Source: Limnohabitans sp. Rim8
Lineage (GTDB): Bacteria; Pseudomonadota; Gammaproteobacteria; Burkholderiales; Burkholderiaceae_C
Length of the DNA: 64,000 bases
Reading direction: 5' to 3'
Assembly (NCBI RefSeq): GCF_945901735.1
Contig: NZ_CAMDLM010000001.1
Location: 124,001-188,000, forward strand
In this document: piece after piece, positions 32,813 through 34,392 of the stretch
Position numbering within the stretch: the first letter of the stretch is position 1
Layout of the letters: each line of letters begins with the position of its first letter
Position numbers and translations under genes: made by a program
Notes under the pieces: generated by a model
Told to the model about the DNA's origin: nothing
The model's input: the letters and a program-made list of their open reading frames with translations, nothing else
Database searches by the model: none

Positions 32813-33207
32813 AGGGCTTTCTCGACACCAACGTCTGGTTGTCCGCCACCGTGTTTGCTGGCTTGTGTGAGGCGATCTTGATTGAGTGCCATCAGCGCGA
32901 CTGGCTATTGACCACCCCATTGGTGCAGGCTGAGGCCCACGAAGTGCTGAAGCGTAAATTTCCTCACTTGCCACAATCACAGGCACTGTTTGACGCCATC
33001 TGGTCAGAAGCCACCTGCGTGCAAGACCTGGACGAGCCCGCAGATGACAACGACGTCAGGCTGGTCAGAGCCGCCAGCTTGGCAGGTGCCGAGGTGTTTG
33101 TCACAGGCGACAAGCGCGTGTTGTCCTGGGGCCGTGAAGGCAACATGCAAATTTTGAGCCCCAGGGATGCGTGGATGCTGCTGTTTGCGGGCATTAATGG
33201 CGCTTGA
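32809..33207 (+). CDS. PIN domain toxin (predicted ribonuclease)
   Basis: The 132-aa protein reads (L)KGFLDTNVWLSA at its start, giving the first PIN-domain aspartate, then acidic residues in DEPADDNDVRLVRAA and AEVFVTGDKRVL, which together form the Mg-binding site. PIN toxins of RHH/PIN pairs cut RNA. The start is taken as the TTG at 32809, seven bases after AGGA and overlapping the antitoxin stop by four bases; the track start at 32773 lies inside the antitoxin gene. Confidence 0.85.
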   Translation: MKGFLDTNVWLSATVFAGLCEAILIECHQRDWLLTTPLVQAEAHEVLKRKFPHLPQSQALFDAIWSEATCVQDLDEPADDNDVRLVRAASLAGAEVFVTGDKRVLSWGREGNMQILSPRDAWMLLFAGINGA

Positions 33208-33211
33208 ATAA

Positions 33212-33297
33212 GCGCCGATGTGGACCGTGCAGGTGGTGCGCCATGTGCGGCACAGCTATACCTTTGGCGATGTCCAGGTTGAGGTGGCGCGCGACAC
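33212..33297 (+). pseudogene. Remnant of a second DUF4143 ATPase C-terminus
   Basis: The frame reads TVQVVRHVRHSYTFGDVQVEVA, matching AVQVVRNARHSYMLGDIQIAVA of the intact ATPase at 31277-32407; base identity is roughly 70%. Nothing upstream of this segment is left. It is too divergent to be a recent duplication, so a homologous gene probably stood here. Confidence 0.75.
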
Positions 33298-33438
33298 TCG
33301 ATGCCAGCAGCGCCAACGTAATAATGAACTTATTGGGTTTATTTTCTCTTTGTTTTGAGCCTATAGTAAATACTTCGAGCCGGCTCAGGAACTTGATCGA
33401 GTGAGCGGGCGGACTGCAAAGAAGGAGCACCGGATTTC

Positions 33439-33579
33439 ATGAGAAATTTAGTCCTGTACGAAAAAGCAGTACAGGGCTGTCAAAGCCATGCTCTAAGAGG
33501 GTTGCAGCCATTTCAACAACAAGATGTATCGACTATGCCCGGATGTATCCACCGGGTTCTGCGGTCTACATCACGTTAG
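33439..33579 (+). CDS. Possible 46-aa ORF of an upstream cassette
   Basis: An ATG ten bases after a strong GAAGGAG site opens a 46-codon frame (MRNLVLYEKAVQGCQSHALRG...) that runs through the first attC-like site and stops at the TAG inside the GTTAGAC core. Small ORFs ending in attC are typical of gene cassettes. I know no homolog, and a perfect hairpin (CCTGTAC/GTACAGG, 33453-33475) lies in it. The remaining bases from 33298 to 33438 show nothing recognisable. Confidence 0.3.
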   Translation: MRNLVLYEKAVQGCQSHALRGLQPFQQQDVSTMPGCIHRVLRSTSR

Positions 33580-33581
33580 AC
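33511..33581. other. Degenerate integron attC-like site 1
   Basis: Order of elements: R''-like TTTCAAC (33511-33517), L'' GATGTATCGAC (33523-33533), a central stem CCCGG/CCGGG (33538-33556), L' GTCTACATC (33564-33572) and a consensus core GTTAGAC (33575-33581). L'' pairs with L' apart from two unpaired bases (TC), as in known attC sites. R'' has a T where a purine is expected. Confidence 0.55.
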
Positions 33582-33603
33582 ACGAGTTGAGGAAGTCACG
33601 CTG

Positions 33604-34224
33604 ATGCACGACAAGAAAATCGAGTGGGGGAAGGAGATCGTTCAAGCCGGTAGCGATATAGCTACTCTAGCCAAGGATGTAGGCATTCCTGGTATCGGGT
33701 TGCTGGCCAAATTCGCCCAGCGCTTCTACGAAAAGCACCTTCAGCAGCGTTTTGCAAAGTTTCTGGCCGACGCAGAAGTTGACGAAGAAATAATCAACAA
33801 AATTTCAGCGGATGCAAACTATTCAAACTACTTCTACGCAGCACTGGAGACTGTTCGCCAAACTCATTCGCAAATCGGTGTTGTTGCGCTGGCTCTTATC
33901 TATAAAGATCACTGGAACGATGAGGCCTATTTGATTGCGGCGATGCGAGCATTCTCTCAAGTCAGTGACAGAACGCTAAATGCGTTTATGTCGTTGTACG
34001 AAGAGATTCCGTCTGGCCAGAACTATCTGGTCTTAACCACTAAAAAAAATGATGAAGGTCACTTCCACGAGATCTACAACGAGGCCGTCGAGCTTATTGG
34101 CCGCAACTTCTTTGTAATGAGTACTGGGGCCAGCATGCATGCAAATGGACCGGTACAGGGGATGAAATGGGATCACACGGATTCTTATTATGCTTACTGC
34201 CGAGCAGCTAAGGCCCGTGTCTAA
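33604..34224 (+). CDS. Uncharacterised protein of an integron-type gene cassette
   Basis: The 206-aa protein is acidic-basic mixed and mostly helical, with no signal peptide or clear membrane span. I recognise no family. Notable stretches are an alanine/glycine-rich N-terminal segment (AKDVGIPGIGLLAKFAQRFY) and a conserved-looking C-terminus (GPVQGMKWDHTDSYYAYC). The ATG is nine bases after GAGGAA and 22 bases after a GTTAGAC core site. The TAA stop lies inside GTCTAAC of the second attC. Its codons look AT-richer than those of neighbours. This is a classic cassette layout, with the gene likely acquired by transfer. Defence or stress roles are common for such cassettes but unproven here. Confidence 0.75.
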   Translation: MHDKKIEWGKEIVQAGSDIATLAKDVGIPGIGLLAKFAQRFYEKHLQQRFAKFLADAEVDEEIINKISADANYSNYFYAALETVRQTHSQIGVVALALIYKDHWNDEAYLIAAMRAFSQVSDRTLNAFMSLYEEIPSGQNYLVLTTKKNDEGHFHEIYNEAVELIGRNFFVMSTGASMHANGPVQGMKWDHTDSYYAYCRAAKARV

Positions 34225-34296
34225 CAAGCCATTCGAGACGGACCTTCGCAAGCGGGCTTCGCCCGCTTGCTCGGCCGCTCATGGGCGACGTTCGGC
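34219..34296. other. Integron attC-like recombination site 2
   Basis: R'' GTCTAAC (34219-34225) fits RYYYAAC and is the exact complement of the GTTAGAC core 5' of the cassette. L'' GCCATTCGAGACGG (34228-34241) pairs with L' CCGCTCATGGGC (34275-34286) apart from a few extrahelical bases. Between them is a perfect 10-bp hairpin GCAAGCGGGC-TTC-GCCCGCTTGC (34248-34270). The terminal core is GTTCGGC, with one departure from GTTRRRY. Confidence 0.75.
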
Positions 34297-34392
34297 CTTG
34301 CGCCAATACATCGCAGAGCACCCGATCACCCACTGACTGCTGTCGCTGGCTCTTTACGAATTGGCCTTGCCGGGCGGTGATCGGAAAAGACG

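Follow-up and report, generated by a model that had tools for sequence, protein, structure and literature searches.

The window analysed here, a stretch of 64,000 nucleotides from Limnohabitans sp. Rim8, very probably carries, taking the anatomy as a whole, a decayed single-cassette integron made up of an eroded integrase gene (intI), an attI site and one cassette with its attC. A remnant of a sedentary chromosomal integron is also the best explanation for the window. The intI gene would have been eroded to about its first 45-55 codons, which run antisense, with the SOS operator, the outward promoter and the attI kept and one cassette, encoding a 206-aa protein and ending in an attC, seated at this attI. 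A sequence-only reading of the same DNA had proposed a gene cassette of the integron type, lacking an integrase and carrying a cargo of no known family, and this proved right on the evidence of an attC model, the lack of an intact intI and the lack of a family match. As for a complete functional integron, the window has an attI; an intact intI was found neither in the window nor elsewhere in its genome.

The integrated cassette is 715 bp long (33576..34290, plus strand) and is delimited by its core sites, by the attC model and by a homologous cassette with the same leader in another genome. As the sequence-only reading had noted, GTTAGAC (33575-33581) precedes the 206-aa ORF (33604..34224, plus strand), whose stop codon lies within GTCTAAC (34219-34225). 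The second of the two sites named in that reading is indeed an attC (34219..34296, plus strand), running from R'' GTCTAAC to R' G/TTCGGC (the slash marks the crossover) with complementary R and L boxes and a bottom-strand fold of -21.1 kcal/mol (z=-3.0). A covariance model was trained on 21 attCs, all from arrays next to an intact intI in the same family and none from the genus; in a search of 90 kb it scored this site at 20.9 bits (E=7e-4), against 9.8 bits (E=1.7) for the next match in the window; in a whole-genome search its E-value is 0.03, and the score alone is modest. The site is nevertheless accepted as a real attC because its position, orientation, fold and the homologous cassette concur. 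The 206-aa ORF is a true integron gene cassette ending in a true attC. A strict-motif attC finder, which missed the site with its R' core GTTCGGC, had gathered the training attCs and was then replaced by the covariance model. Elsewhere in the same genome there is a lone attC of 38 bits (G000:C40:18036-18106, L169), with neither attI nor integrase detected.

The cargo protein has no family in Pfam at cut-off and none in NCBIfam or PADLOC, and no match was found among PDB sequences, plasmids, phages or viral contigs. An AlphaFold model made with three homologs is mostly helical, but its pLDDT of 38 makes it unusable. The closest homolog (L014, 84% identity) sits in a Burkholderiaceae metagenome bin; it shares the opening core, GTTAGACACGAGT, and has a 51-bit attC directly past its stop and a second attC of 49 bits further on, so that the gene is seen as a cassette elsewhere. 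The other relatives come from an enterobacterium (L015, 71% identity), a cyanobacterium bin (L017, 58%, with stops inside the frame) and a Chlorobiaceae bin (L016, a fragment), a phylogenetic scatter typical of cassettes. Homologs beside attC sites, which the sequence-only reading had suggested looking for, are thereby represented by L014, and none of the others has a clear adjoining attC. The gene is rare: among 301 genomes of the family and 399 of the phylum it occurs once each, in both cases in the genome of the window, and the proposed comparison of core sites in close relatives with the same gene finds no close relative carrying it.

The first site of the sequence-only reading (33511-33582), taken there for another attC, is the 3' end of an attI. 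It has no match to the attC model and an unremarkable fold (z=-1.4), so that covariance modelling and bottom-strand folding, both recommended for the two sites, bore out the second but not the first. The attI (33502..33581, plus strand) ends in G/TTAGAC with the crossover at 33575/33576 and was delimited with an attI profile, adjacency to intI and oriented attCs. The profile (R2) scores 95.9 bits in the window (E=3e-27), the window being among its 20 training rows. The same attI lies directly upstream of a longer intI in three genomes of the genus (G766, G753 and G768; profile E about 1e-32), and a weak match lies beside an intact intI in G003. Located with the attC covariance model, 27 attCs lie downstream of such attI sites in the same orientation, one is in the opposite orientation and none lies upstream. 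The first site is identified as an attI because it matches intI-attI junctions, has the start of intI attached and has attCs downstream in the proper orientation.

The attached intI is a decayed 5' end on the minus strand, from 33440 to about 33300. The claim that the window lacks intI holds for a complete gene but overlooked this piece. Its start codon is the complement of 33438-33440, its N-terminal codons, MKSGAPSLQSARSLDQ..., are those of intI when set against the genus intI N-terminus, and the frame reads MKSGAPSLQSARSLDQVPEPARSIYYRLKTKRK, a stop, TQ, a second stop and V, and so on. On protein evidence alone the assignment would be weak, since residues 14-55 of a family IntI match the remnant with 38% identity and E=0.02 (tblastn, small database). 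At the nucleotide level, the intI-attI junction of G766 is 79% identical to window positions 33352-33579 over 230 bp that include the intI start (E=4e-51). A LexA-box-like motif, CTGTacgaaaaaGCAG (33454..33469), was recognised by comparison with genus copies and with a family integron (L117); it has the form CTGT-N8-ACAG in several other copies and is likely the SOS operator of the intI promoter. SOS control of intI has been described (PMC3108266), and the LexA-like motif common to the integrons of the family agrees with it. Within the dead intI lies TATAGT (33362..33367, plus strand), a putative -10 box for Pc, the cassette promoter, located from an alignment of 21 copies and from cluster alignments. 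It is conserved at the expected place and retained in nearly all copies, including those without intI coding sequence; a generic promoter scan made no call there. A promoter in this position, inside the dead intI, would still express the cassette.

A search of the host genome, as the sequence-only reading had advised, returned no intI above the cut-off, and neither the window nor the rest of the genome has a complete one; the best score against the IntI model is 83 bits, for a Xer-type recombinase, versus a cut-off of 265 bits. Among 90 genomes of the genus none has an intact intI, and the two that exceed the cut-off are both broken, G766 by a frameshift and G753 by a deletion; most of these genomes are draft assemblies, from which an unassembled or plasmid-borne intI could escape detection. 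IntI exceeds the cut-off in 132 of 301 family genomes, and possible donors are therefore common. Lacking an integrase, the unit in the window would be frozen unless IntI acts in trans.

Both junctions with the chromosome are visible. On the right, the cassette is followed by the 3' end of an antitoxin gene (...SALRQYIAEHPI..., 34291..34338, plus strand), called brnA from a reading of the sequence and not from a family search. G341 and G343 have this gene at full length, with a brnT-like gene before it, beside the same conserved flank gene. The window becomes homologous to their brnA precisely at TTCGGC, where the IntI crossover is predicted, and the upstream part of the gene is absent. The R' core GTTCGGC has a C at an R position of GTTRRRY because that half-site comes from the chromosomal brnA on the right; relatives carry A/TTCGGC at the corresponding chromosomal site, a poor fit to the core, and loci without the insertion are seen in relatives (L070, L072, L073 and L075). 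The right end would thus represent an IntI crossover between the cassette attC and a non-standard chromosomal site within brnA. Insertion by IntI at attG or other secondary sites has been described (PMC12444791, PMC12901181), and the window resembles it in having crossed over at a chromosomal site with poor core fit. Unlike such insertions, the locus is without the upstream half of the target gene, so that this was a deletion or rearrangement rather than a simple cassette insertion. At the left junction, near 33285-33300, the intI remnant abuts a piece of a neighbouring chromosomal gene. Positions 33200-33300 resemble the 3' end of the gene that in relatives lies directly beside the right-flank gene, and are apparently a duplicated or displaced piece.

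The part of the window at 33349-33580 recurs at many places in 60 genomes of the same genus. Alignment of 20 copies of this 240-bp element gives a conserved end close to GTTRRRY, with a mostly different gene after it; the first part of the element, on the reverse strand, encodes the beginning of an integron integrase. Such dispersal upstream of many different genes would also be expected if the element had nothing to do with integrons and were a cis-regulatory RNA or transposable repeat, and the idea of a regulatory RNA was dropped upon the match to intI. An origin of either kind has next to no probability, as the window has no Rfam match and the element comes with intI codons, a LexA-like box, adjacency to intI in three genomes and oriented attCs downstream. 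It is also very improbable that the window holds a CALIN, a cluster of attC sites with no integrase, as the sequence-only reading had concluded; in that case a cassette with a pair of attC sites would have come to lie away from any integron. The window does share with the CALINs of IntegronFinder an attC cassette with no integrase gene nearby, there being only the eroded 5' fragment; however, a CALIN has at least two attC sites, and here 34219-34296 is the sole scoring one. The other site, unmatched by the attC model, already has its identity as an attI from homology to intI-attI junctions and is attached to the 5' end of a dead intI. A decayed integron with a single cassette is thus preferred.

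Attachment sites of this kind form platforms at several conserved loci in the genus. The attI profile is present in at least 39 genus genomes, with up to 5 copies each, and grouping by left flank places 40 copies besides that of the window in about seven conserved loci plus singletons. Type-1 loci retain intI remnants of differing length. Type-2 loci (B, C and E) keep the promoter and attI and have no trace of intI within 1.5 kb upstream. Orthologous copies at these three loci usually have different first cassettes, the break lying exactly at G/TT. Five genomes at locus B have a common left flank, up to the G/TT of attI, and a common right flank beyond the array; these flanks are mostly 88-95% identical and enclose 2.0-4.6 kb of cassettes that for the most part are not homologous. 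At locus E, a cassette of ~535 bp is present in one genome and missing from another. Compared between loci, attI is 89% identical, the promoter part 82% and the flanks 36% (76-89% for the module); within loci the figures are 90% for attI and 74% for the adjoining flank. Because the module is more alike than its flanks, it predates the cassette differences and is better preserved than the sequence around it. The intI-less promoter-attI module has one and the same sharp 5' start, TTTTGTAGCTAATTTTT, at B, C and E (L093, L096, L132, L133, L134, L135-L138, L088, L092, L097), and for this reason the module itself seems to have been copied.

Since the intI-less orthologs at B, C and E mostly differ in the first cassettes joined at G/TT, cassette exchange seems to have gone on after the local loss of intI. 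At these loci intI was apparently lost before the present species split and the cassettes changed later; exchange at the orphan attI sites would most simply be due to IntI made elsewhere in the cell. We lean towards such action of IntI in trans on orphan attI sites, as judged from the comparison of loci. A broader proposal, about evenly balanced between holding and failing, is a distributed integron of genus-wide, intI-less attI platforms with their own promoters, reloaded by integrases acting in trans, the module spreading to new loci. It is rather unlikely that each locus kept its intI until recently and that independent losses followed in each species after the last exchange. The varying length of the intI remnants at type-1 loci and the frequency of intI inactivation in integrons (PMC2426708) would fit such late losses, but B, C and E have the same intI-less promoter-attI sequence across species and loci, and because of this the loss of intI looks older than the cassette differences. 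Less likely still is one large ancestral array that different lineages trimmed in different ways, through deletion or homologous recombination, without capturing anything new. It would account for the few cassettes that orthologs have in common at shifted positions (L097/L134; G324/G357; G341/G357), but the junctions begin at the G/TT of attI, so that site-specific recombination after the local loss of intI would be needed anyway.

Sedentary chromosomal integrons with an inactivated intI have been called pseudo-integrons (PMC2426708). These and the integrons of Xanthomonas (PMC12444791) resemble the window in that an intI, dead or truncated, lies beside attI and cassettes, and integrase loss is frequent and can be lineage-wide, as here. 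A difference is that attI and Pc persist here at multiple loci in a genome, some of which have lost intI altogether. Platform activity in Xanthomonas is there said to be progressively lost, for example with identical cassettes throughout pv. citri (PMC12444791, as far as drawn on here); in contrast, cassettes beside the orphan attI sites differ between close species. A limited search of the open-access literature found no title describing integrase-less or orphan attI sites or their service in trans, which does not imply absence elsewhere. Surveys look for intI or for attC clusters, and an attI without integrase followed by a single cassette is easily overlooked. Should orphan attI sites remain usable in trans, the loss of intI would not stop cassette capture, and cassette functions, such as the Thoeris-type TIR and Abi-alpha proteins of the genus, could go on changing at sites that have a promoter, while the cell is spared the cost of a resident recombinase. 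The orthologous attI loci offer a ready comparison set for measuring this turnover.

First cassettes in the genus encode a ThsB-type TIR protein (L096), an Abi-alpha protein (L085) and a YfbU-domain protein (L088), and several are without a family. The TIR cassette is in the window's own genome, where a second, intI-less orphan attI (G000:C1:36011-37104, L096 and L173) is followed by a ThsB_TIR (Thoeris-type) protein gene with an attC of 53.6 bits. The Abi_alpha (abortive infection) cassette is in G351, and its attI keeps an intI remnant. The window's genome also has a weak, decayed attI (G000:C10:101603-101655, L151 and L168) at cluster A, the most widely shared attI locus of the genus, and ~670 bp downstream of it lies sequence with a match to the first cassette in both G307 and G343. 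Two strong attI copies are present in a genome of another family (G830:C1:252508 and 3100556; L165 and L166), one of them with an intI pseudogene beside it.
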